Under the pieces are notes generated by a model, which saw only the letters and a program-made list of their open reading frames with translations, did no database searches and was not told where the DNA came from. 51,059 nucleotides of DNA from JBDREC01 sp043820105 [NCBI: Pseudomonadota bacterium] (GTDB taxonomy: Bacteria; Bdellovibrionota_F; JAHFAK01), in contig JBDREC010000104.1 of assembly GCA_043820105.1 (NCBI GenBank), positions 1-51,059 on the forward strand, in the 5' to 3' direction. Both the position numbers and the translations under genes were made by a program. Of this stretch, positions 1,616 to 43,181 are shown in pieces (positions within the stretch are counted from its first letter, which is position 1; each line of letters begins with the position of its first letter).

Positions 1616-1631
1616 AGCAAGCATTGTGCCA
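1616..1631 (-). promoter_or_regulatory. Sigma-54 promoter (-24/-12)
   Basis: On the minus strand it reads TGGCACAATGCTTGCT, matching TGGCAC-N5-TTGCW with exactly 10 bases between GG and GC. The predicted start is near 1605, giving a leader of about 34 nt before the ATG at 1571. Confidence 0.85.
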
Positions 1632-1648
1632 TGTCATCATCACAATTA

Positions 1649-1666
1649 ACCCAATAATAATTGGGT
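1649..1666. repeat. 7-bp dyad upstream of a sigma-54 promoter
   Basis: ACCCAAT, 4-nt loop, ATTGGGT. It is centred about 52 bp upstream of the predicted start at 1605. It lacks a T-run and so is not a terminator. It may be a protein-binding site. Confidence 0.4.
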
Positions 1667-1848
1667 GTTATGTGGTTGGATTAAAAGTATATATTAAAAA
1701 GGGCTAATTTACCTAATTTTTTAAAAATTAAATTTATCTTGAAACTAACACCCGTTTGGGGCAAGGCTCAATTAAAATTAGTCTTAAAATACTCTAACCT
1801 TTATTTATTGTGCCAGAGCAAACCTAAATATTCTAAAAAAACGACTAT

Positions 1849-2604
1849 TTAACATTTTTTCCAAATACCAAGCACATTTTTGTTCTTTAAAAGTAATTGT
1901 TCTTCATCCTCGTATTTTTTATCAATAAATTCATTGATTTTCAAATTATCTTCTTCCAAAATAAATTCCTTGGGAAATTCTATTAAAAAATCTTTAATAG
2001 CTGAAATTAATTTGTCTTTTGAACCCCTATAATCAGAAGTAACATCATGACTTAGAATTTCATTAGCACCACCTTTAAATACTTTATAAAAATTTTCAGG
2101 TGGACAATATGAACATCCTGGAATTATTTTTAACAATCTGGAGATATCAAACATTAATGTCTGCCAATCTGAGTCTCTACTAACTAGAACTACCATTAAC
2201 TGTCCATCTTTTTTCAACCAAGAAAATACCTTTTCTAATAAAGAAGTCCATTCATGAATTGGAAAATAATATAGAACATGTGATATTAGAATAAAATCAA
2301 ACTTCCCTTCATCAAAATTAACATCTAAAATAGACTCATTTTTTATACAAGCCAGTTTAAACTTTTGTTTTAATTCATCACAAAAGCTTTTTTCTTTTTC
2401 TACAATGCTAATTTCTTTGAAATTTTTCGCTATCGCTTCTGTTACAAGCCCATTACCAGCTCCAATATCTAAAAAGCTATCAAACTTATAATCTTTTAAA
2501 TAATCATTTAGACACTTAGATAATCTTTCTTTTTCATTGGAAAAGGAAAGATAGTTCTTTTTAAAACGCTCATTGTAATTATTTTGGACTGATTTGACTG
2601 GCAT
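1849..2604 (-). CDS. Class I SAM-dependent methyltransferase
   Basis: 251 residues with the AdoMet-binding motif I FLDIGAGNGL at about 44-53, an acidic motif II-like end of strand 2 (SIVEKE, about 66-71) and a hydrophobic motif (FDFILISHVLYYF, about 104-116), as in the class I Rossmann methyltransferases (Methyltransf_11/25 type). There is no signal peptide, so it is cytoplasmic. AGGAAA lies just before the ATG. The substrate cannot be told from the sequence. It stands alone, with non-coding DNA on both sides. Confidence 0.85.
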   Translation of the reverse strand: MPVKSVQNNYNERFKKNYLSFSNEKERLSKCLNDYLKDYKFDSFLDIGAGNGLVTEAIAKNFKEISIVEKEKSFCDELKQKFKLACIKNESILDVNFDEGKFDFILISHVLYYFPIHEWTSLLEKVFSWLKKDGQLMVVLVSRDSDWQTLMFDISRLLKIIPGCSYCPPENFYKVFKGGANEILSHDVTSDYRGSKDKLISAIKDFLIEFPKEFILEEDNLKINEFIDKKYEDEEQLLLKNKNVLGIWKKC

Positions 2605-2763
2605 TTTTATTTCCTATGTAAATATACCGGTTAAATGAAATTAATAATTTTTATAGATCATATAATATGTCAAGTTGATAATCTTAAGTTAAAACTTTGC
2701 TCACTTGGATAGTGCCTGAGTAAAACAAGAAAACAAGAGCACAAGGGAACATAGGTTTTAATT

Positions 2764-2791
2764 TTGAATCTTGAATCTTGAATTTTGAATT
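2764..2791. repeat. Heptad array, 4 x TTGAATY
   Basis: Four exact 7-base units (TTGAATC, TTGAATC, TTGAATT, TTGAATT). It lies in the 418-bp gap 2605-3022, which otherwise holds only the pilin promoter and its possible upstream site. It is one of the period-7 arrays scattered through the window. Confidence 0.8.
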
Positions 2792-2905
2792 ATTTCTACT
2801 GCCGGCTTCAATTCAATTACACAATTAATAGGCATATTTTAAAAATAAAACCAGAACTGAGCATCATTTCACCAAAAAACATATGCAAAGAATTACGACC
2901 TTCAC

Positions 2906-2917
2906 GTAAGCACTTAA
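2906..2917 (+). promoter_or_regulatory. Candidate activator site (GTAAGCACTTAA)
   Basis: A near-palindrome centred about 70 bp upstream of the start predicted for the sigma-54 promoter at 2956. Almost the same sequence occurs upstream of the sigma-54 promoters at 21103 and 31269. The role as an enhancer-binding-protein site is inference. Confidence 0.4.
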
Positions 2918-2955
2918 TATGAACAATAAATATTGGACTAAACATTTACAGGCCT

Positions 2956-2971
2956 TGGCATTCATCTTGCA
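2956..2971 (+). promoter_or_regulatory. Sigma-54 promoter for pilin gene
   Basis: TGGCATTCATCTTGCA has GG and GC separated by 10 bases and fits the -24/-12 consensus. The predicted start is near 2982, 41 nt before the pilin ATG. Sigma-54 control of pilA through PilS/PilR is well established in other proteobacteria. Confidence 0.85.
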
Positions 2972-3022
2972 TTTATCTTTATTCGTACGAAAACCTTATG
3001 AACTAAAATTTTTGGGGGAACT

Positions 3023-3517
3023 ATGAAACGAAAAGGATTTACACTAGTAGAATTAATGATCACAGTAGCCATCATTGGCATTCTTGGTGCACTGGCAACA
3101 TCATCTCTAATGGGTCTAATTATTAAATCAAAAAAAGCTGAAGTAAATATTCTAGTTAGCGCAATATTTACAGCTGAAGCTCAATATAATTTAGAAAAAA
3201 ATTATATTCATCCAATATCAGAAGAATTTGACCCCATTCCTGTTTGGTTTGAAAAATTAAATGGTGATAAAATATCAGGTAGCGCAGATACCATTGCCAA
3301 TGATAAAGATTGCCAAATTCTAGGATTTGTCGTTAACGCTGATATATATTCAAACTTTCATGTAAGTTCAAAAATGTCTACTAATGGCATAGATTGGGCT
3401 ATTTATGTTTCTCAAGATCTGGATGATGATGATGAGATTGAAAATTACAAACAAGGAATGAATATTTCTGCTCTTGGATTAATAAAGGATGGTGAGATTC
3501 TAAATGAGGGGTATTAA
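3023..3517 (+). CDS. Type IV pilin-like protein
   Basis: 164 residues. The class III leader MKRKG is followed by FTLVELMITVAIIGILGALA, the canonical hydrophobic helix with Phe at +1 and Glu at +5, so it should be cut by a prepilin peptidase and assembled into a pilus or pseudopilus. The globular part has only one obvious Cys (in NDKDCQILGF) and an acidic stretch QDLDDDDEIE near the C-terminus that could bind calcium. GGGGGAACT precedes the ATG. It has a sigma-54 promoter, unlike its paralogue at 22204-22710, which shares the QDLDDD segment. No pilus-assembly genes are in the window. Its stop overlaps that of the convergent gene by 4 bases (TTAA). Confidence 0.9.
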   Translation: MKRKGFTLVELMITVAIIGILGALATSSLMGLIIKSKKAEVNILVSAIFTAEAQYNLEKNYIHPISEEFDPIPVWFEKLNGDKISGSADTIANDKDCQILGFVVNADIYSNFHVSSKMSTNGIDWAIYVSQDLDDDDEIENYKQGMNISALGLIKDGEILNEGY

Positions 3518-4389
3518 AGCTTTAGATCATTTTCACACCAAGTCATACAATCATAAGGAATTGTAAGTTCAAGATCAATTGTTCCAAAAAAACCACCAAA
3601 GGTTGTTCCATCAACCTCATTAACATTAATGATTTCTCCTTTTTTAAAACCTGGAATCTGATCTGATAAAAATTCAACTTCTACTTTTGCAGGCCGTAAG
3701 GATGCTTCCTCAAAACCCCATTGAACACGGGAACATGTTGAATCATCAATCTCATCATCCTGAAACGACATAATAGTTTCTTCAAATAATGGTTCAATTA
3801 ATTCAAGACTTTTTAACATCTCATAGCTGTCACCTAAATCATTAATTGTGAAAGTAGCCTGAAGAATATCTTCTGCACTCTCTTTTTCAACAACATGATA
3901 TGTTGTCCAATCTGATGATATTTCACCTAGAACCTTGTTGAATTTAAAAAAATCACCAACTAATTTTGCTCGTATAGATGTGGGAAATAAAATTGGATCA
4001 AAATTAAAAGGACCCTTATCTGCCTTTAAAACTAAGGACTCATCCTTAGGCATTACATTTGGAATGACCATAATAAATTCAAAATAATCATCTAGAATCC
4101 AATCAATACTAAATTCAGTATTTGGAACAAAAAGAAAAGTTTCATACATATAACCAAAGGTTAAAATAACTGGATGATGTCCATCTTTTGAATGTTCATA
4201 TTTTATAGCTTTTAGACCACGTTCTTCTAAAATTGGCAGTAATTTGGACATTTCCACATCAGCCACAACATAGGCAGCTTTATATTTTGCAGTTAATAAT
4301 TTAATATCCCAAGGACTTGAAATTGAAATTGTTGGAACAAGTAAGATAAAAAGGATTAAAACATGAATATTTTTATTAAAATTTAGCAT
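3514..4389 (-). CDS. Secreted protein, function unknown
   Basis: 291 residues from the ATG at 4389, which has GGAGAG 5 nt upstream; a GTG 6 bases earlier is the alternative. Residues 1-25 form a Sec signal peptide (LILFILLVPTISISS), so the protein should reach the periplasm or beyond. The mature part is a mixed alpha/beta domain with three Cys near the C-terminus (STCSRVQW, PYDCMTWCEN). A stretch around GHHPVILTFGYMYET reminded me weakly of acetoacetate-decarboxylase-fold proteins, but I cannot support that. Its stop overlaps the pilin stop. Confidence 0.75.
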   Translation of the reverse strand: MLNFNKNIHVLILFILLVPTISISSPWDIKLLTAKYKAAYVVADVEMSKLLPILEERGLKAIKYEHSKDGHHPVILTFGYMYETFLFVPNTEFSIDWILDDYFEFIMVIPNVMPKDESLVLKADKGPFNFDPILFPTSIRAKLVGDFFKFNKVLGEISSDWTTYHVVEKESAEDILQATFTINDLGDSYEMLKSLELIEPLFEETIMSFQDDEIDDSTCSRVQWGFEEASLRPAKVEVEFLSDQIPGFKKGEIINVNEVDGTTFGGFFGTIDLELTIPYDCMTWCENDLKL

Positions 4390-4482: not shown

Positions 4483-4487
4483 GCGTC

Positions 4488-14047: not shown

Positions 14048-14314
14048 ATGGAAAAAACCAATATAAAAGAAAAACTTGAAAAGCTGCTTGGTGTTAGAGA
14101 AGCTCATGAAATCATCAAGCTATTAGCAAAAGTTAAATCTTCAGAAGATAACCAAGCTGCCCAGGAAGTGGATCGTATTGCCAGGATAATTAATAAAAAA
14201 ATACCACAAATAGAATATAGATACAAACAGCTTACAGCCAACACTCCTGAAGCTTTAGAAAAAATAAAGGTGCTTGCGTATCTTGTAAAAGATGTGACAG
14301 TGAATATTAATTAG
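14048..14314 (+). CDS. Small helical protein, function unknown
   Basis: 88 residues, no signal peptide, predicted all-helical with a charged pattern (KEKLEKLLGVREAHEIIKLLAKVK). It starts 3 bp after the histone-like gene and is certainly cotranscribed, so the two may act together on the nucleoid. AAGGAATAAAC supplies a ribosome-binding site inside the end of the upstream gene. Its 3' end overlaps the convergent gene by 8 bp. The family is not recognised. Confidence 0.75.
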   Translation: MEKTNIKEKLEKLLGVREAHEIIKLLAKVKSSEDNQAAQEVDRIARIINKKIPQIEYRYKQLTANTPEALEKIKVLAYLVKDVTVNIN

Positions 14315-14702
14315 AAGCTGCGATGATCTGAGCCTCTTTTTCTGCTACTTTGACCTTGAAAAATTTTGTTTTTCTTAAATCAATTGTTTTATCAGAAACA
14401 GTTACAGAAACACGATATTCACCTTTTTCATCTGGTGCTATCCAAAGAGCTTTTGAATTATTGATTTCTAAAGGTTTTGGGTTATCTCCAATACTAGACA
14501 ACCACTTAAACTCAAGATTATTTATATTCTTATTTGTATCAATATAAAAGACAATTTTCTCATTTGCTTTAAAAAGTATATCTTCAGTTTTCAAAAAATC
14601 TGTAAATTCAATTAGCTTGAATTCATCAGAAGCACTGAAGGCTGTTAAAGGTATAATACTAAGAAAAAGTATCTGGCTTATCATTTTTGTAATTTTTTTC
14701 AT
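14307..14702 (-). CDS. Secreted Ig/PKD-like protein
   Basis: 131 residues from the ATG at 14702 (AAAGGGG upstream). An alternative ATG at 14720 overlaps the upstream stop as ATGA and would add six residues. Sec signal at 1-23 (ILFLSIIPLTAFSA). The mature part is one beta-sandwich-like domain with PKD/Ig traits: NLEFKWLSSIGDNP, ALWIAPDEKGEYRVSVTVSD, FKVKVAEKE. It is therefore likely periplasmic or surface-exposed. It is second in an operon behind the sigma-54-driven lipoprotein gene. Confidence 0.75.
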   Translation of the reverse strand: MKKITKMISQILFLSIIPLTAFSASDEFKLIEFTDFLKTEDILFKANEKIVFYIDTNKNINNLEFKWLSSIGDNPKPLEINNSKALWIAPDEKGEYRVSVTVSDKTIDLRKTKFFKVKVAEKEAQIIAASN

Positions 14703-14716
14703 AATTGCCCCTTTAA

Positions 14717-15259
14717 TCATTGCCTGATCATATTAAGTGTAAAATAACCTTCAATTTCATATCCATTATAGCTATAGATATCTATAGTGCTTTCTTGATC
14801 AGAAGCTAAACCATAAGCTGCATTATTAGGCGCTATCAATGCAACATTTGCATTATTTGAACTTGAAATATTATTAAGACCTTCATTAATTCCTTGCACA
14901 TCAAGATAAAATATAGGTCCAAAAGCATCATCACTAGCTGACATGCTTATTGTTGCATTAGAAATACTTGAATACATACCCACCATTGCATCACTTGAAG
15001 CCTGTGAATAAAATAAAACATCACTACTCATTATTGGCTGAGAATAATCATATTGATTTTCAGGAAACACATGAATATCGTAGATTTCGCCGTAGTATTC
15101 ATATGAAGAATAATAAAAACTTCCTGTTACATAAATTGAATCTCCTAAAACAGTTCCGCTTTGTGAAGCCAAGTAAGAATAATTCTCATTATTTCCGCAA
15201 CTAAATAGTCCCATTAGTACTATTAAAAATATCATGAATTTTAAAGCTATTCTAAGCAT
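14717..15259 (-). CDS. Lipoprotein, function unknown
   Basis: 180 residues from the ATG at 15259 (AAGGAGG 9-10 nt upstream). Lipoprotein signal 1-20 with lipobox LFSC. The mature part is Ser/Asn/Tyr-rich and beta-type (VTGSFYYSSYEYYGEIYDIH), nearly free of Cys after the lipidated one. It should sit in the outer or inner membrane leaflet. First gene of a two-gene operon with the Ig-like secreted protein (ATGA overlap) behind a near-consensus sigma-54 promoter. No family recognised. Confidence 0.8.
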   Translation of the reverse strand: MLRIALKFMIFLIVLMGLFSCGNNENYSYLASQSGTVLGDSIYVTGSFYYSSYEYYGEIYDIHVFPENQYDYSQPIMSSDVLFYSQASSDAMVGMYSSISNATISMSASDDAFGPIFYLDVQGINEGLNNISSSNNANVALIAPNNAAYGLASDQESTIDIYSYNGYEIEGYFTLNMIRQ

Positions 15260-15297
15260 TTTCAAATTCCTCCTTCTTTTTAGATACTAAGATATTA

Positions 15298-15313
15298 AGC
15301 AATTTCTGTGCCA
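15298..15313 (-). promoter_or_regulatory. Sigma-54 promoter
   Basis: On the minus strand TGGCACAGAAATTGCT, with GG and GC 10 bases apart. The predicted start is near 15287, 28 nt before the ATG at 15259. A half-site ACACTTAAG (minus strand, about 15325-15333) lies upstream. Confidence 0.87.
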
Positions 15314-15459
15314 ATGAAATTTATCTTAAGTGTCTGTTTTTATTAGGCATCAAATTGAATATTAAAACAAAAGCGCTTATTTATTGCATATTTTCGCGTT
15401 TTTATATATTTTTGAGCAGATTTTACTCATTATACTAATAGGACCTTTTGGAGGAAATG

Positions 15460-19719: not shown

Positions 19720-19827
19720 AACATTCCTCCTTCAATTATTTATTTAATAATTTTATCATACATCTGTTTTATTTGCAAATATTAAGAAGCACTTTATGTT
19801 CGCCAGTAAAAAAAATAACTGCGAGAA

Positions 19828-19916: not shown

Positions 19917-19932
19917 TGGCACATAAAATGCA
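19917..19932 (+). promoter_or_regulatory. Sigma-54 promoter
   Basis: TGGCACATAAAATGCA, GG and GC 10 bases apart. The predicted start is near 19943, 26 nt before the ATG of the RTX-repeat gene. Confidence 0.85.
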
Positions 19933-19968: not shown

Positions 19969-20616
19969 ATGAAAGTATTAACAATTACCCTAATCTTATC
20001 TTTTCTTTTTTCATTTACATTATTTGCATATGAACTTGATAGTATTAATTTAGATGATTCATTTGAATTTGAGCCAGCTTATGGTCAAGGAATCTGCAAT
20101 AACCATCAAATATACATGCCTAAATATGTTTCTTGCTGGTTTGGAACCTCAGGTGATGATGTATTCTTTGTCACTGACGACAATAAAGTCAAAATCAACA
20201 ATGAAATCGTTGGTGACTATGTATTAACATACGATTACCCAGCTGGAAGCATAGTAAGAATGCATATTTTCCTCGGGTTTTCAGGAAACGACCAAATCGC
20301 AGGGGGCCCAGGCTTTGACTTCATTGTTGGTGGACCAGGAGATGATTACTTATTTGGTGGTGACTATAAAGACAAACTTGAAGGCCGCCAAGGAAATGAT
20401 ATTTTGCAAGCAGGGGCTGGTGATGATGTATTAGAAGGTGGCTCAGGTGATGACATTTTGTTAGGGGAAGCAGGCAATGATATCTTGAGAGGTCAAACTG
20501 GTGTTGATTATTTAGACGGAGGACTTGATGCTGATATTTTAGATGGTGGAAAGCAAGAATGTAACACTATTATTACCGATGATAACGACTTATATAAAGT
20601 AAATGGTTGCGATTAA
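19969..20616 (+). CDS. Secreted protein with RTX calcium-binding repeats
   Basis: 215 residues. Sec signal 1-20 (ending TLFA). Residues 21-105 form an N-terminal beta region with three Cys. From about 103 to 195 there are nine or so GGxGxDxLx-type nonapeptides (GGPGDDYLF, GAGDDVLEG, GGSGDDILL, GEAGNDILR), which fold into a calcium-filled parallel beta-roll. RTX proteins are normally exported by type I systems using an uncleaved C-terminal signal. This one has an N-terminal Sec signal and no type I genes nearby, so it probably reaches the periplasm or surface another way. The sigma-54 promoter ties it to the other secreted proteins here. Confidence 0.88.
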   Translation: MKVLTITLILSFLFSFTLFAYELDSINLDDSFEFEPAYGQGICNNHQIYMPKYVSCWFGTSGDDVFFVTDDNKVKINNEIVGDYVLTYDYPAGSIVRMHIFLGFSGNDQIAGGPGFDFIVGGPGDDYLFGGDYKDKLEGRQGNDILQAGAGDDVLEGGSGDDILLGEAGNDILRGQTGVDYLDGGLDADILDGGKQECNTIITDDNDLYKVNGCD

Positions 20617-21102: not shown

Positions 21103-21118
21103 TGCAATCATGAGGCCA
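21103..21118 (-). promoter_or_regulatory. Sigma-54 promoter
   Basis: On the minus strand TGGCCTCATGATTGCA. The GG/GC spacing of 10 and the TTGCA box are exact; CC replaces CA after TGG. The predicted start is near 21092, 29 nt before the ATG at 21063. Confidence 0.75.
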
Positions 21119-21147: not shown

Positions 21148-21159
21148 TTAAGCACTTAA
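21148..21159. promoter_or_regulatory. Candidate activator site (TTAAGCACTTAA)
   Basis: A near-perfect palindrome centred about 62 bp upstream of the start predicted for the sigma-54 promoter at 21103. It matches the sites at 2906 and 31235. Role inferred. Confidence 0.42.
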
Positions 21160-23030: not shown

Positions 23031-23046
23031 TGGCACTAAACTTGCT
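23031..23046 (+). promoter_or_regulatory. Sigma-54 promoter for the helical-protein operon
   Basis: TGGCACTAAACTTGCT is a full match to TGGCAC-N5-TTGCW. The predicted start is near 23057, 67 nt before the ATG at 23124. TTTAAGCCCAT at about 22978-22988 resembles the TTAAGCACTT sites. Confidence 0.9.
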
Positions 23047-23123
23047 TAAAAAAAAGAAGAACAATGCCGAACATAGACGTATTATAAGCATATTATTAAT
23101 TAATGTTTTTAGGGGGCCTAAAA

Positions 23124-24023
23124 ATGAAACGCACAGTACAAATCTTATCGTTAATCGTACTTTTCACTATTATATCAACTACACTGATTTTTGCTCAAAG
23201 ACCAGTAGACGTAAGAAAATCAATGACAAAAAGAGAAGCTTTAAGAGAATTTAAAAAGCTTAAATCTGGTGATCAAGCTATGATGTCAGAAGCTGATTGG
23301 GCAAAGTCAAACAGAGATATGCTTCTTGGTCTTACTTCTGTCAGAAGTTTTGATAAAGGAACAAGACCTTCTGAAACAGCAAGTGAAGCTGGCGAAATAA
23401 AATTCGCTAGACAATATTTAATAGATAATGTTGCAAAACTCATGGAAAATATTAATAAAGCAGAAATAAGGTTGTCTGAATTAGATGAAATTGAACTAGA
23501 GGAAAAAGATAAAATTGAGGTTACAGAAAAAAGTATTTATATTAGAGCAAAAAGATTTTTTGAAAATTGCAGTGACGATAATGTGTTGAAGTTTATATCT
23601 GTACTTTCAGCGGTTGAAGATTTTCCAAGAGAAGTTCGAAATAGTGCATTAAAAACACTTGCTATGTATGCTGAATATGCTGAGAAAACAGATGATACTG
23701 GCATTCCAGTAGAAAAGCTTATTTTTGATTTAAATGATATGCTCAAAACTGAAGAAGGCCGTGATCCAGTTGAAATAGTTGAAGTGGAAAGACATTTAAG
23801 AGAACTAAGAAAAGTTTTTGCAATAGCTGTTGCTGAATTTGCAAAAAGCACGAGCACTAATGTTGAAGCTATGAAAACATTTCAGTTTGCTTTTGGAAAA
23901 TATCATGTTCTAAAAGAAGCTAAAAAGCTTGGACTTACTTATCAAGCTGCAACCTTAGCTGAAAAAGTAAAGGAAATTGTTAGAGAAAAACTTGAAAGAC
24001 TAGAAAGATGTCTATTAATTTAA
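23124..24023 (+). CDS. Secreted helical protein, operon gene 1
   Basis: 299 residues from the ATG at 23124, chosen because AGGGGG precedes it and a signal peptide follows (MKRTVQILSLIVLF to IFAQ, about 24 residues). The mature chain is almost all helical and highly charged, with heptad-like patches (KAEIRLSELDEIELEEKDKI; EVERHLRELRKVFAIAVAEF; EKVKEIVREKLERLERC). One Cys at FFENCSDD and one near the C-terminus. The KREALREFKKL segment could be a helical hairpin. No family recognised. It leads a four-gene operon of secreted proteins and has a sigma-54 promoter. The signal-peptide start resembles that of the protein at 31379 (MK.T.QI). Confidence 0.82.
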   Translation: MKRTVQILSLIVLFTIISTTLIFAQRPVDVRKSMTKREALREFKKLKSGDQAMMSEADWAKSNRDMLLGLTSVRSFDKGTRPSETASEAGEIKFARQYLIDNVAKLMENINKAEIRLSELDEIELEEKDKIEVTEKSIYIRAKRFFENCSDDNVLKFISVLSAVEDFPREVRNSALKTLAMYAEYAEKTDDTGIPVEKLIFDLNDMLKTEEGRDPVEIVEVERHLRELRKVFAIAVAEFAKSTSTNVEAMKTFQFAFGKYHVLKEAKKLGLTYQAATLAEKVKEIVREKLERLERCLLI

Positions 24024-24088
24024 AATAATTATTTTCACCTTATAATATAACTTTGGGTAGAGTTATATTTAGAGAAGGGGGAGCGCAA

Positions 24089-27016
24089 TTGAAACATTCA
24101 AAACAAAAATATAAGCTTTCTATACTTACATCCTTATTCATTATATTTTTCATAAGCTATTCTGCATTTGCTGAAAACTCATCTGATGGCACAGCAACTT
24201 CAAACTCAGATTCCGAAATAAACGGCGATGAACAAATTATTCGTTTTTATCCTATAAATGGTCAAACTCAAATGTCTGTTAAAACGATTGATGAAGAAGC
24301 AACAATGATGAATGTTGTTTCTAATCCAACACCATATCACACAATTGGCTTAACAGAAGAAGAAATTTTAAGCTTAAGCGAAAATGCTCTTGATAAAAAA
24401 ATAGAAGAAAAAATTGGAGAAGAAGAAAACGCCTTGAGAAACTTATTTGCAATAATTACCGCGAGCAAGACAAAAGATGAAAAGGCATTGAAAAAAATGG
24501 CTGAAGATGAAAGAATACCTGAACAATATAGAATCTTACTAAAAGATATTTTAAGCTCAAAAGGTGAAGACAGGGCTCTTCAATTGCACGAACTTGAAAA
24601 TCATTATAAAGTTAGAAAATATAATTTCACAGGAACTAAAAGCCTACTCCAAGATCCAGAAAGAAAAACAAATGAAGTAGCGTGGTATTCAAAAGGAATG
24701 GAAAAAGGTTATTTTCTCCAGGCTACGCCAGCTCATAATACTGGTGCACATATGGTCCAATTTTATTCAGCTGTCGTTTTATCAAGTCTTATTTCTGATC
24801 CAGCTCATTTTGACGAATCAATTACATCACTTTTAATACCAAGAACACATGCACATTTTTTAACCTTCACATATTTTGCAAATCTAGGCAGCACAGGCAC
24901 AATGTTTATGAGAAACATTATGGGCACAGCACTGGGTCTAAAGTCTTCTCCTGGAATTCTAGCACAATCAACAGCTTCATATTTAGGCTTAGTACTAGGT
25001 TCAACAATGGCAGACGTGATCTGGGAACTAGCAGCTGAACCCGAACACTGGAAAATACTCTGGAGAAGTGTATTTAATAAGGATAAAGTTAATAAAGCAG
25101 AAAACCGTTATCTACGAAATAGCATCTTGGAACATTTTGGATATAGAGCATCTTCTGGGTCTCTTAGCTTTCTTGCTGCAGTTATCTCTTCAAAAATGAT
25201 TGAAAAAGGTGCTCTATACGGAGCATTAGGTTTATTAAATGGTACTTTAAAGGGAAACATAAAAACCACACTTATTTCACCAGATGATGCATATGGCAAA
25301 GCACATAATATGAGTAGAAAAAAAATTAAGTCTAAGTTGCCTAAAAAAATGGCCCAAGTACAGAGAGTCGAAGCGCCTGTTAGTATTTTAGAAAAAAAGC
25401 TTGTTCAAGCTGGTGTGGGTGGCAAATCACAATATGTTAGATTTGGAAAATGGGGAGTAAGAAGATTAGGTGGTGAAGCCACTTTGCTTTTTGACATAAT
25501 TTCTACAACCTTCATGTTAACACTGGCCCATAAATACGAACAATGGGATCAAGGCAGACAACAGGAAAATTATGAAGAAAGATATCAAGAAGCCATTACA
25601 GACTTCAACTCAACCAGAAAAGCATATGAAATTGGTGGAAAAAGATACATTGATCTATTAATAGCCTCAACAGAAGTAGCAGATAAATTTCAGCATTTAT
25701 TAAGTAAATATCAGGAAAAACACCTTATATTACAATCAGTTTATGAACAAGAAATGTACCAAATAAGTACTAAGTATAATTCTGCTATAAATTGGATTAA
25801 ATGGATTGGGCTAAATGGTCTTAATGTAAATGATCAAGAGTTTCTTGTTGGAGAACAAACAGGATGGCATGAACCCTTTGGAACAAAGAAATTTTATGCA
25901 CAAACAATGGATTGGTTAAGAATCTTTTTCTGGGGATCATGGTATCCTGAAACAAAAAAGCATAATCCATTATCTGGTTTTAGACCTGTTTACGATATTG
26001 ATAAAGTTTTATCAACTGAGCTAAAAGATAAATTTGAAAACTATAAAGGTGATATTGGAGCAGCTCAGCAAGCAATTAATTTAATAAAACAAGTCCACGC
26101 TGGAAGAACATATCAAGAAGCCACAAGAATATATATTCAAAAACTTGAAGATCAAAGGGATCTTAAAATTCAATCTGCTTTTAAAAAGCATATGAAAAAA
26201 TCAAAAAAGACTTTAGAAGAACTTTATATTAAAGATTCAAAAATAAGTGCAACTATAAATAAGAATCTTATATACAACTACAGAGACTATATTAAATCAC
26301 TTAAAAAAGTGAAATTCCCAAGCTCATTAAAAGAAATCAAAGTAAGTCAGTCCACTCACTGTCTTGATATTCTTTTGGGTGAAGCTCCTTTTGCTCAGGC
26401 AGACAGAATATATGACATTAATTATTGCAGGGGAATTATAGAAGATGATTTTGATAAATTACTAATTTATCTTGGTATAAATAAAGAGGAGGCAATGAGT
26501 ACTAATCCAGAGAGTCAGCCTCATAACTCATCATTAACAAACTTGGCCTTATTACATGCAAACAGAATATTTAGAACACTGATTGAAGAAGAACAAATAG
26601 ATGGAGCATTAAAATTTACCGTGGGTTATGACATAACTTATGAAGACCTTGTAATGCATGAAGTATCTGGTTTTGCTGACGTTAGCAGGGCATGTTCACA
26701 GAGATCATGTAATATGATGTTCAACCCCGCTGAAGTAATGGCTGAAAGAAGAAAAGAATTAGAAGCACAAAATGGAATTGAAAGACCAATAGATGAAAAG
26801 ATAGAATTAAATGAACAAGAAAAAAGGTATATGAATTCATTAATTGTCACAGCTGATAGAATGAAAAGAGCTTTTACCGATAGAGCAACACTAGAAAATA
26901 TAAAAAAGAATTGGTCAATTTCTAGTGGGGAAAACCATGATGATGGTGGAATAAAAAAAATACCAAGAATCCCGGAAGAAAGATCTGGAAGATTAAGCAC
27001 AGGACCAGGAGTTTAA
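24089..27016 (+). CDS. Large secreted helical protein, operon gene 2
   Basis: 975 residues from a TTG at 24089 (AGAAGGGGGAG upstream), which puts a clean Sec signal (about 1-27, ending SAFA) at the N-terminus. Next comes a charged helical region (about 90-180). From about 210 to 390 runs a long Gly/Ala/Met-rich hydrophobic stretch with segments such as GSTGTMFMRNIMGTALGL, SYLGLVLGSTMADVIWEL and KGALYGALGLLNG, more like amphipathic or membrane-inserting helices than classical transmembrane helices. A coiled-coil part (WDQGRQQENYEERYQEAI) follows, then SAINWIKWIGLNGL and a charged C-terminal third. The order of regions parallels the next gene. No family recognised. 65 bp separate it from gene 1. 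Confidence 0.82.
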   Translation: MKHSKQKYKLSILTSLFIIFFISYSAFAENSSDGTATSNSDSEINGDEQIIRFYPINGQTQMSVKTIDEEATMMNVVSNPTPYHTIGLTEEEILSLSENALDKKIEEKIGEEENALRNLFAIITASKTKDEKALKKMAEDERIPEQYRILLKDILSSKGEDRALQLHELENHYKVRKYNFTGTKSLLQDPERKTNEVAWYSKGMEKGYFLQATPAHNTGAHMVQFYSAVVLSSLISDPAHFDESITSLLIPRTHAHFLTFTYFANLGSTGTMFMRNIMGTALGLKSSPGILAQSTASYLGLVLGSTMADVIWELAAEPEHWKILWRSVFNKDKVNKAENRYLRNSILEHFGYRASSGSLSFLAAVISSKMIEKGALYGALGLLNGTLKGNIKTTLISPDDAYGKAHNMSRKKIKSKLPKKMAQVQRVEAPVSILEKKLVQAGVGGKSQYVRFGKWGVRRLGGEATLLFDIISTTFMLTLAHKYEQWDQGRQQENYEERYQEAITDFNSTRKAYEIGGKRYIDLLIASTEVADKFQHLLSKYQEKHLILQSVYEQEMYQISTKYNSAINWIKWIGLNGLNVNDQEFLVGEQTGWHEPFGTKKFYAQTMDWLRIFFWGSWYPETKKHNPLSGFRPVYDIDKVLSTELKDKFENYKGDIGAAQQAINLIKQVHAGRTYQEATRIYIQKLEDQRDLKIQSAFKKHMKKSKKTLEELYIKDSKISATINKNLIYNYRDYIKSLKKVKFPSSLKEIKVSQSTHCLDILLGEAPFAQADRIYDINYCRGIIEDDFDKLLIYLGINKEEAMSTNPESQPHNSSLTNLALLHANRIFRTLIEEEQIDGALKFTVGYDITYEDLVMHEVSGFADVSRACSQRSCNMMFNPAEVMAERRKELEAQNGIERPIDEKIELNEQEKRYMNSLIVTADRMKRAFTDRATLENIKKNWSISSGENHDDGGIKKIPRIPEERSGRLSTGPGV

Positions 27017-27033
27017 GGAGAAAGGAATAAATT

Positions 27034-30033
27034 ATGATATTTAATGAGGACAGTTTGAAAAAACAAAAAAAGTTTATAATTCAAATATTCTTAATATTAA
27101 TGATTATTGTTTTATTATTCTCAAGTATGAGTGCGTATGACTTATATCCAGCTGATTATGATCCGGATGGGAATTCTTCTGCATCGTTAATTGCAATAAT
27201 TTTTGATAAGCTAAGTGATCATAATAAGAAAAAAGCCGAGGACCTAAGCCAACAGCATGACATTAATCCAGAACAATTCTTTGGCTTATACACTGGAAGC
27301 AAATCACAATGGCAAACAATATCAAGTGAAATCCTTGATTTAACTAAAACATATATGTTTCCAACTATTGAAAACAGTGAAAATGTGAATCTTGGTTTTG
27401 ATTTTGAAAATCAAGTTATGAGTTCAAATGACCCAAATGATAAAGGTAAAATTTTATCATATTATCTTCTTTATCACATTTTAAACAGAGTCCCTGTTAA
27501 TTTTGATAAGCAAGCAATTATTGATCAGCAATTAATAGGTTATGATTCAATGGCTCTAAGATTTAATGAGGAAGAAACTGAAGAAGATATTGATTATGAT
27601 GCCAGTGATCCATCTGATAATTATAAAAGTTCTTATGATGATGATAATTGCGATGATGGTTCTTTTTGTGAAAAAGCTGAAGAAAATAGAGAGGATGACT
27701 TTTATGAAGATAGTGATGCATGTATCCCTGATGAGGGTTGCGATGACTATACATCAGAAGAAGAAAGATATGATGAAATAAGTGAAAAGTTAACACATCT
27801 CTATAATTCAAACTTAAGAGCGTGGCACAAGGGCAGATCTGTTCTATGGAATCACTTTAATCCTGAATGGCTTCTATTTAATATTGATATAAGTGAAGCA
27901 AATGCTGAAGAAAGGCAGTATTTTGTTCAAGTAGCGGATGTTTTCAATAAAATCATTAACAAAGAATTTCCGGAAAATGACAAAGAAATGGCCAAACTAC
28001 ATGAAAATATGATGGATGGCGCTAATCTTAAGGGTCTTGCGAAATTAAGACTTAATGGAAATAAATTTCAACTTGTGATGAATAGAAAAGAGTTTTCTGA
28101 TATGAAAATTTATCCAGAAAACAAAGGTTGGAATATTGAATCTAGAGACCCCTTTCACATTGAGGGTATGCAAAAATTCGCTAAAGAACTAAAAAATGTA
28201 ATCGTTTTTGGATCAGGTTTTGCTTATGGTAGCGCGGTTGTACCTTGGTTAGATAATAATTTATTAGGCAAAAGTTTATTATTAAAACTCAGAAAAGTTC
28301 CATATTTAAAGTCCTTTCTTTTTCATCCTGTTAAAAAACCTTTTAATGTTGCTGATCCAAAAAAATCAGTAAGTGTGCTTAAAAAAATGGGGAAAGGATT
28401 ATTAAGGGTCCCAGCTAGAGGTGTCAGTGACATTGCTACTTTTGCATCAAGGTTGCCGACAATTGCAGGTGCATTGTTTTATGGATATACGGCTTTTGAC
28501 TATTATAGCACAATGAATGAAATTTCAAATGGCATGGTAGTTAATGATAACGGACTACCAGTATTTTTTAATACCTTAAATGAGCAAAACGCGATGGTTG
28601 GCGATATAACCTTTGAAGCAATGCGAGCCTTATCTTTTCAAGTGCTCATGAGAGGTCAGGTAATGAATCCTGTATCATTGGGAATATTAACAACATACAT
28701 GACAGCTGAGTTTATTCAAGGCTTATCAAAAATATCTGGATCAAAAGTTGAATTTAAAGATGCAATAGCTGGACATTATTCTACTTATCAAAGATTATGG
28801 GATAAAAAAGTCCATCCTATGTTACATCCTGAAAAAGGCGAAATAAATAGGCAAAAAAAGTTAAATGAAGCAAACAACAATTATTACTTAACTTACTATG
28901 AATTTGAAAAAGATCCGTTAGTTTGTAATGGTTTCGTTGATACTGATATACTAATGGGTCATCAAAATGAGTTTGCTATTAGAATGAACAATATAAACAC
29001 AGGTCTTGGTACAATCAAAATAATAAGTTCACTTGTTGATGAATTTGAAAATCGAAACTTAACTGAAAATGAGCAAATGAAAATCAAGCAAGGTTTAAAA
29101 GAACTTTATTGGATTTTATATGAATCGGATAATGAACTTATGCCCACAACTATACCGACAAAATTAGAGATAGAGGATTTTAAGTGGAATGACTTAGAAT
29201 ATTTGGGCGACTTAAATTTAGCCAAACAAAATGTTATTCTCTACTTAAAATCATATCTCCCGGAACTTCGATCTGGTTTGTATAATAAGCTTGAAGCTTC
29301 TTATGGAATGTATTGGAAATATATGAAAATGTCATCACTTTGTTGGATGAATTACATTTTTAATGGTTTAAGGCACACTGGAAATCCAAATTCAGTAGTA
29401 AATTATTTTTTCTTTAATCCAAGAGATGTTAGCTCAAGAGGATTAGCTGCATTAAAACAAGTTACTGTAAGTTCAATTAAAAAATTCTGGAATAAGGTTT
29501 TATCATTTGTTGGTATTGATTGGCGCTTTGAAATCAAAAGCTATCGTGACGCTTATTATAAAAAAATTGAATTAATGATGCATGAAAGTAAAAATGAATT
29601 AATTTCAGCTTTTTGGCAAACCTTTTTTCTAGATAGTCAATATTTTGAATTTAAAGAAAGATACCAATCTGCAAATATAAGAAGATCTGTAAATGATGAT
29701 GAACTATATTATGACACTGTGTTAAATGAAGATGGCAGTTTAAAGAATCCACTTTTTGTATGGCATGTAAGAGAAGCAACTTCTGAGTCTAATTGGGAAT
29801 TCATTCCTTTAGTCAAATACTATCACCTATTAAAAGATAAAATCTTGAATTATAAAGAAGTTGATATAGCACAAATTGAGGCCTTAAAAACTCGAATTGG
29901 TCAAGAAAATAAAAAAGATCAAATTGATCAGAACCGAAATGAAGATGAAGAGCTGAAAATGGAATCAGTAAGGATTTTAGAATGTTTAGTGTCTAGTGAT
30001 AATCCAGATAAATGCAATAGGAGGGATAACTAG
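27034..30033 (+). CDS. Large secreted helical protein, operon gene 3
   Basis: 999 residues with AAGGAGAAAGG before the ATG. N-terminal hydrophobic segment 14-30 is a signal peptide or anchor (FLILMIIVLLFSS). Residues 178-240 form a very acidic Asp/Glu/Ser stretch with four Cys (DDNCDDGSFCEKAEEN). About 385-580 is Gly/Ala/Met-rich and hydrophobic (VIVFGSGFAYGSAVVPWL, LPTIAGALFYGYTAF, VSLGILTTYMTAEFIQGL). The last 400 residues are charged helices, with SSLCWMNYIFNGL placed like SAINWIKWIGLNGL of gene 2. I infer the two are distant paralogues. No known domain is recognised. Periplasm or surface expected. Confidence 0.82.
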   Translation: MIFNEDSLKKQKKFIIQIFLILMIIVLLFSSMSAYDLYPADYDPDGNSSASLIAIIFDKLSDHNKKKAEDLSQQHDINPEQFFGLYTGSKSQWQTISSEILDLTKTYMFPTIENSENVNLGFDFENQVMSSNDPNDKGKILSYYLLYHILNRVPVNFDKQAIIDQQLIGYDSMALRFNEEETEEDIDYDASDPSDNYKSSYDDDNCDDGSFCEKAEENREDDFYEDSDACIPDEGCDDYTSEEERYDEISEKLTHLYNSNLRAWHKGRSVLWNHFNPEWLLFNIDISEANAEERQYFVQVADVFNKIINKEFPENDKEMAKLHENMMDGANLKGLAKLRLNGNKFQLVMNRKEFSDMKIYPENKGWNIESRDPFHIEGMQKFAKELKNVIVFGSGFAYGSAVVPWLDNNLLGKSLLLKLRKVPYLKSFLFHPVKKPFNVADPKKSVSVLKKMGKGLLRVPARGVSDIATFASRLPTIAGALFYGYTAFDYYSTMNEISNGMVVNDNGLPVFFNTLNEQNAMVGDITFEAMRALSFQVLMRGQVMNPVSLGILTTYMTAEFIQGLSKISGSKVEFKDAIAGHYSTYQRLWDKKVHPMLHPEKGEINRQKKLNEANNNYYLTYYEFEKDPLVCNGFVDTDILMGHQNEFAIRMNNINTGLGTIKIISSLVDEFENRNLTENEQMKIKQGLKELYWILYESDNELMPTTIPTKLEIEDFKWNDLEYLGDLNLAKQNVILYLKSYLPELRSGLYNKLEASYGMYWKYMKMSSLCWMNYIFNGLRHTGNPNSVVNYFFFNPRDVSSRGLAALKQVTVSSIKKFWNKVLSFVGIDWRFEIKSYRDAYYKKIELMMHESKNELISAFWQTFFLDSQYFEFKERYQSANIRRSVNDDELYYDTVLNEDGSLKNPLFVWHVREATSESNWEFIPLVKYYHLLKDKILNYKEVDIAQIEALKTRIGQENKKDQIDQNRNEDEELKMESVRILECLVSSDNPDKCNRRDN

Positions 30034-30035
30034 TC

Positions 30036-31118
30036 ATGAACAGAAATAATTTAAAAGCATTTATTTTTTTATTTGCCTTAGCATATTCTTCCCTAATTTA
30101 TTCTCAAAGCGGTGATGATGCATTGTGGGCTTTATTAGGTGAAGTTAACCAAGTATTAGAGCAAGAGCCAGCATTACGAACAGCTGTTATAGAGGCAAAA
30201 GATGAATTTCAAAGAACCAGTATTGATTTGGAATCTGAAGTTGAAGAAGAATTTGATGTTCTATTATGGAATAACCTATTTAATGAACTTGCAACCACAG
30301 GTGAAACTTTCACTTTTGAAGATATAAATACATTATATGAAGAAGAAAATTCACCAGAAACAGTCCAAAGTCCTTCAGACATTTACGAGTTCGCAACAAG
30401 CACTGTTGATAATACAAGCACAGATGAAGCAGAACCAGAAGGCATATCCTATAAAGAAGCCAGGAATATGATTTTCAAAGAATATCTAGATAAAGTGACA
30501 AATAATGATTTTAGAGTAAAATCATTTTACTGGAGATTTGTTTTAAGGCTTGCTGATTTTTTTAATACCTCTTGGAATTGGACCGCGAGAAATATTTATA
30601 AAGAAAATATCGGGCGAGTTTATTCAAGAGACAGGCAATTATTAAAAGTAGAAGCAGAAACATTATATTTAACTAAATATCTTATGAAAAAACATGAAAA
30701 CATGTTGTTCCAGGATGGAAGCATATTATTAGAAGCTGGCTTAGCTGACTTCGCGGAAGTATGGGAAATGCTATTACGAGACGCTGGCTGGGATCCGAGT
30801 GAACTTACAGAGATGAACTTAAATAATTTTGAATCAGTCTATAGTGATGCCATATCAAATCCAAATATTGATATTGAATCTGAAGAACAATCAAATCCAG
30901 ATATAATATGTGAAGAAATAAAAAGTATATTTTTAGAAAAGATAAATAATGGTGAATATGATACTGCATTATATATTGATCTAGCTTTAGAAGAAGATAT
31001 AAGATATTTTATTGATGAAATTCCAGAAGAATATCTTTTATATGAAACTCGTAACATCTTGCTTAGTGACAAAGTAGAACCATTAATTCAAGAAATCATG
31101 TATGAGCTTGGGTATTAA
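30036..31118 (+). CDS. Secreted helical protein, operon gene 4
   Basis: 360 residues starting 2 bp after gene 3, with AGGAGGGATAAC before the ATG. Sec signal 1-23 (FIFLFALAYSSLIYSQ). Acidic and Thr/Ser-rich to about 140, then basic/aromatic helices (DFRVKSFYWRFVLRLADFFN, SWNWTARNIYKENI), then acidic helices to the end. A single Cys lies late in the chain (PDIICEEIKS). The tight spacing implies translation with gene 3 and a shared complex is plausible. No family recognised. Confidence 0.8.
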   Translation: MNRNNLKAFIFLFALAYSSLIYSQSGDDALWALLGEVNQVLEQEPALRTAVIEAKDEFQRTSIDLESEVEEEFDVLLWNNLFNELATTGETFTFEDINTLYEEENSPETVQSPSDIYEFATSTVDNTSTDEAEPEGISYKEARNMIFKEYLDKVTNNDFRVKSFYWRFVLRLADFFNTSWNWTARNIYKENIGRVYSRDRQLLKVEAETLYLTKYLMKKHENMLFQDGSILLEAGLADFAEVWEMLLRDAGWDPSELTEMNLNNFESVYSDAISNPNIDIESEEQSNPDIICEEIKSIFLEKINNGEYDTALYIDLALEEDIRYFIDEIPEEYLLYETRNILLSDKVEPLIQEIMYELGY

Positions 31119-31234: not shown

Positions 31235-31246
31235 TTAAGCACTTGG
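31235..31246 (+). promoter_or_regulatory. Candidate activator site (TTAAGCACTTGG)
   Basis: Centred about 55 bp upstream of the start predicted for the sigma-54 promoter at 31269. It shares TAAGCACTT with the sites at 2906 and 21148. Role inferred. Confidence 0.42.
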
Positions 31247-31268: not shown

Positions 31269-31284
31269 AGGCACACATTTTGCA
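31269..31284 (+). promoter_or_regulatory. Sigma-54 promoter
   Basis: AGGCACACATTTTGCA, GG and GC 10 bases apart. The first base is A in place of T. The predicted start is near 31295, 84 nt before the ATG at 31379. Confidence 0.82.
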
Positions 31285-40487: not shown

Positions 40488-40506
40488 CTTTATCTCTTTA
40501 TATATT

Positions 40507-41187
40507 TTACTTCTTTACATTAATTATATTGGCTTCAGGGGTAACTATGCCTCCTGAAATTATGGATTTAAAAGCTACATCAACTGTTATATTTAAATCA
40601 ATCATATCTTTTTCAGGTATGAATAAATAAAATCCTGAAGTTGGATTTGGAGTTGTTGGAACAAAAACAGAAAGCAACTTCTTGCCAAGTTTGCTTTCCA
40701 TTTCCTTTGAACCAACGCCAGTCACAAAAGCCATTGTATAAATTCCTTTGCGAGGATATTCGATTAATACAGCCCTTTTAAAACTATCTGCTTGGCTTGT
40801 TAAAATTGTTTCAATTATTTGCTTTATACCATTATATATTTTTCTTAGAATTGGAATTCTTTCAATTATATCTTCATAAAATTGAACAAGTTTTCTGCCA
40901 AAAATATTTCGGGCCATAAGGCCTATTAAAAAAAGAATCATTATTAAAAAAATAAGTCCCAAGCCAGGTAATGGGAAGTCTAAAACAAAACCTGGAATTG
41001 CGTCTCTTGGAATATAGGAAAAAAACTTTCCACTTATTGATTTAAAAAATTTATCTGAATAGTTCAGAAAAAATCGAACAAGTGAGAAGGTGGCTCCAAT
41101 TGGCACAAGCACCAAAAATCCAGCAATTATATTTCTTTTCAAATCACGTTTAATAGCTGAAAAAAAACTAGAAATTATTTTTCTCAT
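40507..41187 (-). CDS. DUF502 family membrane protein
   Basis: 226 residues. AAAGGATAA lies before the ATG, 3 bp after the lysS stop. Two membrane helices (about 19-41 and 68-93), then the family signature: [70 protein letters not shown]. The DUF502 family is widespread in diderms and plants and its role is not firmly known. Coupled to lysS. Confidence 0.9.
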
Positions 41188-41190
41188 TTA

Positions 41191-42711
41191 TTATCCTTTT
41201 AAAAGACTTGTAAAACGTTTCTTTATAAAGTCATTATCTAATGTGGCTAAAAACCATCCTGCTCTTGGACCTTTTTCCTGCCCAAGCATTGAAATATATA
41301 TTGCCCTAAAAGCTTCACTTGGTTCAAGTTCAAATTTTTCTTTTCCCTCGTAGATCAGTTTGTGGAAATCATCTCCTGAATAATTCTCTTGTGCATGCTC
41401 GGCAATATATTCTAAAAACTCTTTATTTTTTTCACTCAAAGTTAAAGCTTCACTTGGAACTTCTTGCTTTATTTCAAAGCGCATGCTTTCTGGAGCGAAT
41501 CTATCAAGCCACTTCCTGGCCCAAAATGCTCTATCAGCCACTGCAGCTTTACTTACAATTTCATAGCCAGTTCTCTTTAATATATGAATGATTTGATCAA
41601 CATCATCAGCAGCAATTTGAACTAGGTTTACCATGTGTTTAAAAGGAACATTGGCTGCCTCGATCCCTCTAATTGATGATAGCTCATAAGCACGCTGATT
41701 CCTGTTAGCATTTTCTTCATCATATTCATTTATAATATTCAAAATGCCAAGACCAGGATCAAAAGTAATTGCTTTTTTAGGTTGAACTTTGAAAACCATA
41801 TATCTTAAAACTTCAGGAGGAAGTACTTCTAAGGTTTTATCAATGCTTAGAACATTTCCTTTACTTGAAGACATATCACCCTGTCCTTTTAAAGAAATCC
41901 ATTCATAAATTATTGGAACAGGAGCCTGGCAATCAAAAACTTCTTTAGCAATTTCAACCCCAGTATCATATGAACCACCGCGAGAGGCATGATCTTTTCC
42001 AAAGGGTTCAACTAATACTTTTAAAACTGACCACCTAGCTGGCCAATCAATTCTCCATGTTAACTTTCCATTCCCTGTTACATCTACTGTCTTTGCTGAA
42101 CCACATGAGCATTCATAATCAATAGAATTATTTTCTCGTGAAAATCCAACAAGTTTTGTTGTGGTCATTTTCTTGCAATCAGCACAAATTGGATTAAATG
42201 GAGACCAATCTTGAGAAATTTCTTTTCCTGTTTTCTTATTTAAAATGCTTGCAATTTCCTCTCTTTTTTCAAGAGCAGAAAAAATTGCATTATTCATTTC
42301 ACCTGATTCATAAAGTTGGCTAGATCTTTTAACTTCCACATCAATATCAAGTTTTTTTAAAGACTCAACAAAGGGAATCAAGAAGTGCTCTGAATAGCTG
42401 TCATGTTGCCCACAAGGGCAAGGAATCCTGGAAATGGGCATTCCTACATATTGTTCATAAATCTCAGCATCTAAAAAAGGGTAAACCTTTCTAAGTGGAT
42501 CAAAATTGTCTGCAATATAATGAAAGGATATTTTATCAGTTTTTTTCTTTAATGACCTAAAAACCGCATCACCAGTCAAAACTTCCCTCATATTACCAAT
42601 ATGGATTTCACCAGATGGTGTGATTCCAGTACTAATTACTATATCTTTATTCCTTGCTATAGCCTGATCAGCTACCAAATCAGCCCAAAAATTCGAATTA
42701 TCCTGTAACAT
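41191..42711 (-). CDS. lysS: Lysyl-tRNA synthetase, class I
   Basis: 506 residues. ISTGITPSGEIHIGNMREV carries the HIGH-type motif HIGN (37-40) and GDMSSSKGNVLSI the KMSKS-type motif, so it is the archaeal-type class I enzyme, not the class II enzyme most bacteria use. Cys pairs (CPCG, CADC, ECSCG) are the zinc-binding knuckles in the insertion. It charges tRNA-Lys. AAGGAA lies before the ATG. First gene of the lysS-DUF502-smpB-prmA-tsaC run. Class I LysRS is patchily spread in bacteria, including several deltaproteobacterial groups. Confidence 0.95.
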   Translation of the reverse strand: MLQDNSNFWADLVADQAIARNKDIVISTGITPSGEIHIGNMREVLTGDAVFRSLKKKTDKISFHYIADNFDPLRKVYPFLDAEIYEQYVGMPISRIPCPCGQHDSYSEHFLIPFVESLKKLDIDVEVKRSSQLYESGEMNNAIFSALEKREEIASILNKKTGKEISQDWSPFNPICADCKKMTTTKLVGFSRENNSIDYECSCGSAKTVDVTGNGKLTWRIDWPARWSVLKVLVEPFGKDHASRGGSYDTGVEIAKEVFDCQAPVPIIYEWISLKGQGDMSSSKGNVLSIDKTLEVLPPEVLRYMVFKVQPKKAITFDPGLGILNIINEYDEENANRNQRAYELSSIRGIEAANVPFKHMVNLVQIAADDVDQIIHILKRTGYEIVSKAAVADRAFWARKWLDRFAPESMRFEIKQEVPSEALTLSEKNKEFLEYIAEHAQENYSGDDFHKLIYEGKEKFELEPSEAFRAIYISMLGQEKGPRAGWFLATLDNDFIKKRFTSLLKG

Positions 42712-43165
42712 ATTAAATTCCTTTTTTAATTAAACAATTACCATTTTTTCTAAGAAAAGCCACTACAAAACAAAAAAAATCAGAAATTTCAACCATTTTC
42801 GGTGTTTTGGGCATTTATTTTCTAAAATCAGGCAAGTGCGCTCATTTTTAAGCATAGAATTTTAAGGATTTTGTTGTTAATTTTTGCTTAAAAGTAACAA
42901 AAATACTTAGAAAAGCTAACCTGAGCGTTTTTTAGGCTTTTTGATCTTTCTGTGCAATTGTTTGCAGATTCGCTAAGCTCTTATTTTTCCAAACATATAT
43001 GGATTGCTTTGCAATTTAGTTTATTAATATATTGATTCCAACAGTGTTTTAGCTTGAAATATGCTCAAAAGTCTTATTTTGATATTAAGCTCTGTTTTCA
43101 CCACAGGTTAAAATATCCAATGGATAGAAGTTTTTAGGCATTTTTTTTATGCAATAAATCCAGGA
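42712..43165. other. Non-coding stretch upstream of the small RNA
   Basis: About 450 bp without a convincing gene on either strand. It holds the palindrome ATTGC-TTT-GCAAT at 43003-43015 and TTAAGCTCTG at 43085-43094, which resembles the TTAAGCACTT sites and lies about 100 bp upstream of the predicted RNA start. AAAAGTAACAAAAAT at about 42890-42904 may be a leftover of a dispersed element. I see no tmRNA, tRNA or riboswitch here. Confidence 0.5.
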
Positions 43166-43181
43166 TGGCATTTAAATTGCA
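43166..43181 (+). promoter_or_regulatory. Sigma-54 promoter for a small RNA
   Basis: TGGCATTTAAATTGCA, GG and GC 10 bases apart. The predicted start is near 43192, exactly where the structured RNA begins. The next coding start is 294 bp downstream, beyond a terminator. Confidence 0.85.

Follow-up and report, generated by a model that had tools for sequence, protein, structure and literature searches.

Sigma-54-type promoter elements ahead of exported-protein genes and a predicted small RNA in 51 kb of a low-G+C bacterial genome

The stretch of DNA analyzed here (the window) comprises 51,059 bases of contig JBDREC010000104.1 from the bacterium JBDREC01 sp043820105 and has a G+C content of 31.2%. 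It carries seven protein-coding units and one predicted small RNA that lie behind elements of the sigma-54 (-24/-12) type, and these elements, with the genes that follow them, are the subject of this report (Table 1). A previous reading of the same DNA made from its letters alone (the sequence-only reading) had listed eight such elements in which exactly 10 bases separate GG from GC, each correctly oriented and giving a leader of 26 to 84 nucleotides (nt). All eight were present at the positions reported, the low coordinate having been cited for the three on the minus strand (1631, 15313, and 21118 when named by the high one), and both the orientation and the leader lengths, counted by hand from ATG starts with transcription assumed to begin 12 nt past the C of the -12 GC, were borne out. 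All eight elements were intergenic, and 7 of them pointed to an annotated start located 45 to 110 nt from the T of the -24 box. The eighth (43166) pointed to a hairpin RNA, with the next gene 320 nt away.

Table 1. Promoters, promoter-linked genes, predicted small RNA, and palindromes of the window (promoter scores are out of 7; palindrome distances run from the octamer end to the -24 box)
Feature	Position	Strand	Remarks
Lipoprotein gene (lipobox by reading), 306 amino acids (aa) from ATG, family unassigned	651..1571	-	behind promoter 1616..1631
Sigma-54 promoter TGGCACAATGCTTGCT	1616..1631	-	7/7, strict match
Palindrome AAGCACTT	2908..2915	.	40 nt upstream of -24 box (promoter 2956)
Sigma-54 promoter TGGCATTCATCTTGCA	2956..2971	+	7/7, strict match
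Type IV pilin-like gene	3023..3517	+	N_methyl PF07963, E 6.3e-9
Small secreted protein gene, second of two-gene unit	14307..14720	-	Pfam matches all below cut-offs
Lipoprotein gene, first of two-gene unit	14717..15265	-	behind promoter 15298..15313
Sigma-54 promoter TGGCACAGAAATTGCT	15298..15313	-	7/7, strict match
Palindrome AAGCGCTT	15371..15378	.	57 nt upstream of -24 box (promoter 15298..15313)
Palindrome AAGCACTT	19787..19794	.	122 nt upstream of -24 box (promoter 19917)
Sigma-54 promoter TGGCACATAAAATGCA	19917..19932	+	6/7
Secreted protein gene, RTX calcium-binding nonapeptide repeats	19969..20616	+	PF00353, E 2.7e-28
Small secreted protein gene, 7 Cys in 148 aa	20617..21063	-	behind promoter 21103..21118
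Sigma-54 promoter TGGCCTCATGATTGCA	21103..21118	-	6/7, weakest of eight
Palindrome AAGCACTT, AAGTGCTT in promoter direction	21150..21157	.	31 nt upstream of -24 box (promoter 21118(-))
Sigma-54 promoter TGGCACTAAACTTGCT	23031..23046	+	7/7, strict match
Four-gene unit (306, 987, 999, 360 aa), exported-type N-termini	23103..31118	+	no family over Pfam cut-off
Palindrome AAGCACTT	31237..31244	.	24 nt upstream of -24 box (promoter 31269)
Sigma-54 promoter AGGCACACATTTTGCA	31269..31284	+	6/7
Secreted protein gene, 281 aa	31379..32224	+	no Pfam family
Sigma-54 promoter TGGCATTTAAATTGCA	43166..43181	+	7/7, strict match
Predicted small RNA, two hairpins, second then T-rich tail; both ends inferred	43192..43256	+	fold of 43184-43258

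Sites were scored against a generic consensus in which GG-N10-GC was fixed and seven further positions were counted, with no training on the eight sites, and for the null distribution 33 intergenic blocks, which still included rpoZ and a small gene at 392-640, were dinucleotide-shuffled 1000 times. Between genes, eight sites reached a score of at least 6 of 7 (all 6 or 7), compared to a shuffle mean of 0.163 (Poisson P = 1e-11), and these were exactly the eight elements listed before; the background rate in shuffled intergenic DNA, which the sequence-only reading had named as a check, was thus far below the count seen. The strict pattern TGGCAYNNNNNTTGCW was matched five times in the window compared to a shuffle mean of 0.15, and five matches were reached in 0 of 100 shuffles; five of the eight promoters fit this pattern, and the remaining three differ from it at one scored position. 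When the gap was varied on the real sequence, a gap of 10 gave eight intergenic sites, while the 11 other gaps (5 to 9 and 11 to 16) gave 3 in total. Alignment of the eight elements showed strong agreement only at the canonical -24/-12 positions and none in the flanks. A scan for sigma-70 promoters, which covered positions 1400 to 20000, was uninformative (105 sites versus 94.7 in shuffles). The shuffle, strict-pattern, and spacing results indicated that the elements behave as real sigma-54 promoters.

Some of the results weigh against this conclusion and would suit an origin by chance, in which AT-rich intergenic DNA happens to contain TGGCA and TTGC words spaced as in a promoter. Three sites within coding sequences also scored 6 at a gap of 10 (the whole shuffled window gave 2.04 sites of at least 6), and two of the eight promoters, 21118(-) with TGGCCT and 31269(+) with AGGCAC, are weaker, each deviating in the -24 box; 19917(+) deviates once, in the -12 box, and 21118(-) took only rank 26 among all positions in a leave-one-out weight matrix. 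Nevertheless, the excess over the shuffles and the near absence of sites at the eleven wrong spacings make chance exceedingly improbable, as does an outside control: a 2.1-Mb Fusobacterium vincentii record that encodes sigma-54 (PF04552, E = 3.9e-40) and has 30.9% G+C in its first 50 kb contained 5 strict matches, about 41-fold fewer per base than the window with its 5 in 51 kb. It is also highly improbable, if marginally less so, that the elements are binding sites of another regulator or copies of a dispersed repeat that merely resemble -24/-12 boxes. A second motif, the palindrome AAGYRCTT, does co-occur with them as the site of a second factor would; however, the agreement is confined to the canonical positions rather than extending into the flanks, and all but one of the eight face a gene located at the distance usual for a promoter.

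The genes behind the promoters were then compared with the remaining units of the window, export being judged from the N termini (signal peptide, lipobox, or prepilin leader) with hydropathy as an aid. All seven protein-coding units with a site were exported, compared to 14 of the 36 units in the window (P = 4e-4; P = 1.4e-3 when two units led by polytopic membrane proteins, at 10619 and 35263, were also counted as exported). A first tally had given 13 of 35 exported units (P = 2.6e-4), to which the lipoprotein gene at 392-640 was then added. It counts against this association that the calls were made non-blind. Seven exported units had no site (those at 392, 3514, 7714, 15448, 22204, 32810, and 50244), so the promoter set does not represent the exported proteome as a whole. 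Housekeeping genes between the exported units lacked such promoters, and no sigma-54 site was found at the glutamine synthetase gene (4488(-)). The claim of the sequence-only reading that mainly secreted products lie behind the sites held for every protein-coding unit with a site, whereas its "deacetylase-like" label for the lipoprotein encoded at 651-1571(-) was left unsupported: the product matched no Pfam family at E = 0.1 and no PDB sequence at E = 10, its two weak NCBIfam matches did not include a deacetylase, and its fold model was too poor to use (predicted local distance difference test [pLDDT] score, 39.7). Taken together, it is likely that these are real sigma-54 promoters serving genes for exported proteins.

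Three other genes of exported type were noted. The pilin gene at 3023-3517(+) has a paralog at 22204-22710(-), the two products being 44% identical, and only the former has a sigma-54 promoter; the second pilin had no match in a plasmid collection at E = 0.01. A small lipoprotein rich in Cys (14 residues in 116 aa) is encoded at 7714-8064(-) without a sigma-54 site, and the lipoprotein-like gene at 392-640(+) specifies an 82-aa product that ends in a Lys-rich tail and matched no Pfam family.

For the transcript expected from promoter 43166, a small RNA is the better reading. The segment 43184-43258 folds to -27.7 kcal/mol (z score, -3.8) and closes in a GC-rich hairpin followed by a T-rich tail. 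The competing reading, that the promoter serves a 46-codon gene (43218-43358), gains from the facts that this frame is open, would have a leader of about 26 nt, shows (by reading) GGGG 10 nt ahead of its ATG, and is followed past its stop by a terminator-like hairpin. Its codon score of -0.002 bits per codon also exceeds the 95th percentile of wrong frames (-0.318); however, the same score is lower than that of any of the 16 other frames scored (0.187 or more) and lower than the 1st percentile (0.063) for stretches of 45 codons taken from the genes used, and a strong hairpin lies within the frame. We thus regard the 46-codon gene as unlikely, although not negligible. For the preferred small RNA (43192-43256), no Rfam family scored above its gathering score, and 18 sub-threshold Rfam matches (E of 0.33 or more) were taken as chance, so that no known RNA family was assigned. 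Directly past the first hairpin lies a weak -24/-12 candidate at 43260-43275(+), followed by a second structured stretch (z score, -3.6) and a terminator-like hairpin at 43363-43386. As a second promoter this candidate, with 5 of 7, was rejected, since shuffles gave a mean of 0.98 intergenic sites of at least 5 and the window has two others with a score of 5, one of which falls inside rpoZ.

Polymerase carrying sigma-54 stays closed at its promoter until an AAA+ enhancer-binding protein bound upstream loops over, hydrolyzes ATP, and opens it. The sequences upstream of the eight promoters may hold a site for such a protein. AAGYRCTT precedes five of the eight promoters at spacings of 24 to 122 nt, four times as the octamer AAGCACTT. 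It occurs nine times in the window; the five intergenic copies all lie upstream of these promoters and the other four lie inside genes. Two more units without a sigma-54 site (4395(-) and 9728(+)) have a copy within 250 bp, in both cases within the neighboring gene. When 256 half-palindrome patterns were tested, 0 of 2000 shuffles (150 bp) and 1 of 2000 (250 bp) were equally extreme, and so were 0 of 2000 random sets of eight other units; for this control set the divergent unit 15448(+), which shares palindrome 15371, was left out and unit 392-640 was added. AAGYRCTT arose from the best 12-mer of a motif search and was then tested, which makes the tests partly post hoc, and the restriction to half-palindromes was chosen after the motif had been seen; the enrichment is therefore counted as good support and not as proof. 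Judged by this pattern of occurrence, AAGYRCTT may be the candidate site of one common activator.

Several findings argue against the reading of sigma-54 promoters with one shared activator. Promoters 1631, 23031, and 43166 lack AAGYRCTT, palindrome 15371 also stands ahead of 15448(+), a divergent exported gene that itself has no sigma-54 site, and three of the five palindromes lie just 24 to 40 nt from the -24 box, which is tight for looping. Unrestricted motif searches upstream of the eight promoters were not significant with either 12 bases (score of 32.4 versus a null mean of 29.6; standard deviation, 2.3) or 16 bases (42.1 versus 41.8). Unrestricted word tests under nine combinations of word length and region were equaled by between 0 and 17% of 200 shuffles, and those with 8-mers by 7 (150 bp) and 28 (250 bp) of 2000; random sets of eight drawn from 28 other upstream regions, still including 15448(+), equaled the 8-mer result in 13 and 28 of 1000 draws, best with A-rich words. 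Moreover, a Pfam scan of all 49 listed products of the window found no sigma-54 or sigma-54-activator family, so rpoN and the activator gene would sit elsewhere in the genome, and two genome-collection scans, with the 999-aa operon protein and with class I lysyl-tRNA synthetase (PF01921), returned no relative. A viral-contig scan with the 987-aa operon protein likewise found none, and the 1377 plasmid-collection records that matched EF-G were all below 60% identity (best, 53.5% among the matches listed). The literature search found no paper joining AAGCACTT with sigma54 and enhancer binding, which does not make the site undescribed.

These findings have to be weighed against a reading in which the sigma-54 promoters are real but are divided, one or two apiece, among several unrelated enhancer-binding proteins; their clustering would then reflect a promoter-rich genome without a joint programme, and AAGYRCTT would be a chance or unrelated feature. 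This contests only the shared-activator part, and we consider it a serious contender that falls somewhat short of even. Deltaproteobacteria are known to distribute their promoters among many activators, with 36 regulons and 87 promoters in Desulfovibrio vulgaris (PMC4641369) and 28 activator genes for 110 predicted promoters in Geobacter sulfurreducens (PMC2725144); the three promoters without a palindrome and the just moderately significant wider word tests would also fit. On the other hand, the placement of all five intergenic palindromes ahead of these promoters, the half-palindrome result, and the export of all seven protein units are not what unrelated activators would lead one to expect. 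At least five promoters (2956, 15313, 19917, 21118, and 31269) probably share one activator, bound as a dimer to AAGYRCTT, although we are less sure of this single activator than of sigma-54 promoters serving exported genes. The sequence-only reading had proposed that one condition or developmental programme switches on the exported set. One programme is plausible for these five promoters; for the other three (1631, 23031, and 43166), which lack the palindrome, it stands as a conjecture.

Sigma-54 control of the cell exterior has been described before, and the window adds a new, densely packed case of that control. In organisms with sigma-54, but not in those without it, a large fraction of the best matches lie 0 to 200 nt upstream of a start, and Francke et al. 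(2011; PMC3162934) tied such oriented -24/-12 sites to the cell exterior, including lipoproteins; theirs is a tendency over many genomes, whereas here all seven promoter-linked protein units of one 51-kb stretch are exported and their families are mostly unassigned. The same paper names glmY of Escherichia coli as a sigma-54-dependent small RNA. A close precedent is the PEP-CTERM/EpsH regulon with PrsK-PrsR (Haft et al. 2006; PMC1569441), in which sigma-54 promoters likewise precede genes for exported proteins (99 of 167 proteobacterial PEP-CTERM genes) together with a second shared upstream motif. That motif is a 17-nt sequence ending in TTTACA, with a spacer of 32 to 92 nt, rather than AAGYRCTT, and the window differs in having no sigma-54-activator family among its products by Pfam; none of the 11 products encoded in the seven promoter-linked units gave a PEP-CTERM Pfam match at E = 0.1 or 1. 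In D. vulgaris (Kazakov et al. 2015; PMC4641369) the regulome likewise includes extracellular functions and 4 non-coding RNAs, but its 87 promoters are spread genome-wide over 36 regulons with broad metabolic roles, compared to 8 in 51 kb here. For the largest fraction of them, the nearest activator site is no more than 100 nt away, and the short palindrome spacings in the window (<40 nt) may be set beside this value and the PEP-CTERM spacer. The G. sulfurreducens RpoN regulon resembles the present set in having an RpoN promoter ahead of pilA and many activators, and differs in including nitrogen targets such as glnA (PMC2725144), the glutamine synthetase gene of the window being without a site. 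Its 110 predicted promoters in 3.8 Mb, obtained by another method, amount to about 29 per Mb, compared to about 157 per Mb for 8 promoters in 51 kb of a window that was chosen for its sites.

Other features of the window were recorded as well. A perfect 35-base inverted repeat at 88-292 surrounds 135 bases that contain an inner 23-base inverted repeat, for which a miniature inverted-repeat transposable element-like element or a long hairpin RNA is offered as a reading. Glycoside hydrolase family 57 (PF03065) is matched in consecutive portions by two neighboring frames at 8202-9087(-), one with E = 1.5e-6 and the other, below the cut-off, with E = 0.005, and the gene thus appears split or decayed. 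The omega subunit gene rpoZ (PF01192, E = 5.8e-18), which is below the open reading frame length cut, was found at 32517-32723(-); its end is partly overlapped by a tandem array at 32421-32532 with a 7-base unit of the ACTTAYS type (unit by reading), and similar words recur on the opposite strand (32741, 36653, and 46533). A protein with a Lys/Ala-rich, histone H1-like C terminus (PF07382, E = 3.2e-5, below the curated cut-off) is encoded at 43486-44328(+).

As a working model, RpoN-bearing RNA polymerase would sit closed on each of the eight -24/-12 elements until an enhancer-binding protein bound upstream opened them with ATP, and at no fewer than five of them one activator would read AAGYRCTT. 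The switch would serve the pilin, two lipoprotein units, the RTX protein, small secreted proteins, and a four-gene operon of large exported proteins, together with one small RNA, presumably at a common time, and the organism would in this way apply a tight sigma-54 switch to a portion of its surface proteome and to one RNA. A stronger form of this model, which we put forward tentatively and consider rather doubtful, is that of a dedicated surface programme in a low-G+C bacterium, in which one AAGYRCTT-reading enhancer-binding protein drives, through sigma-54, a large share of the exported proteins (the pilin, lipoproteins, the RTX protein, and large exported proteins of unassigned family) together with one regulatory RNA, with promoters packed several-fold more densely than in well-studied sigma-54-rich genomes. 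In either form, this would be an unusually clean sigma-54 cell surface switch, every promoter-bearing protein unit of the stretch being exported and the housekeeping genes between them remaining outside it. AAGYRCTT would provide a handle, since pairs of palindrome and promoter could be searched for genome-wide and unassigned exported proteins could be attributed to one programme; and if the rest of the genome is as dense in promoters, G. sulfurreducens, a species with many sigma-54 activators, would be exceeded several-fold.

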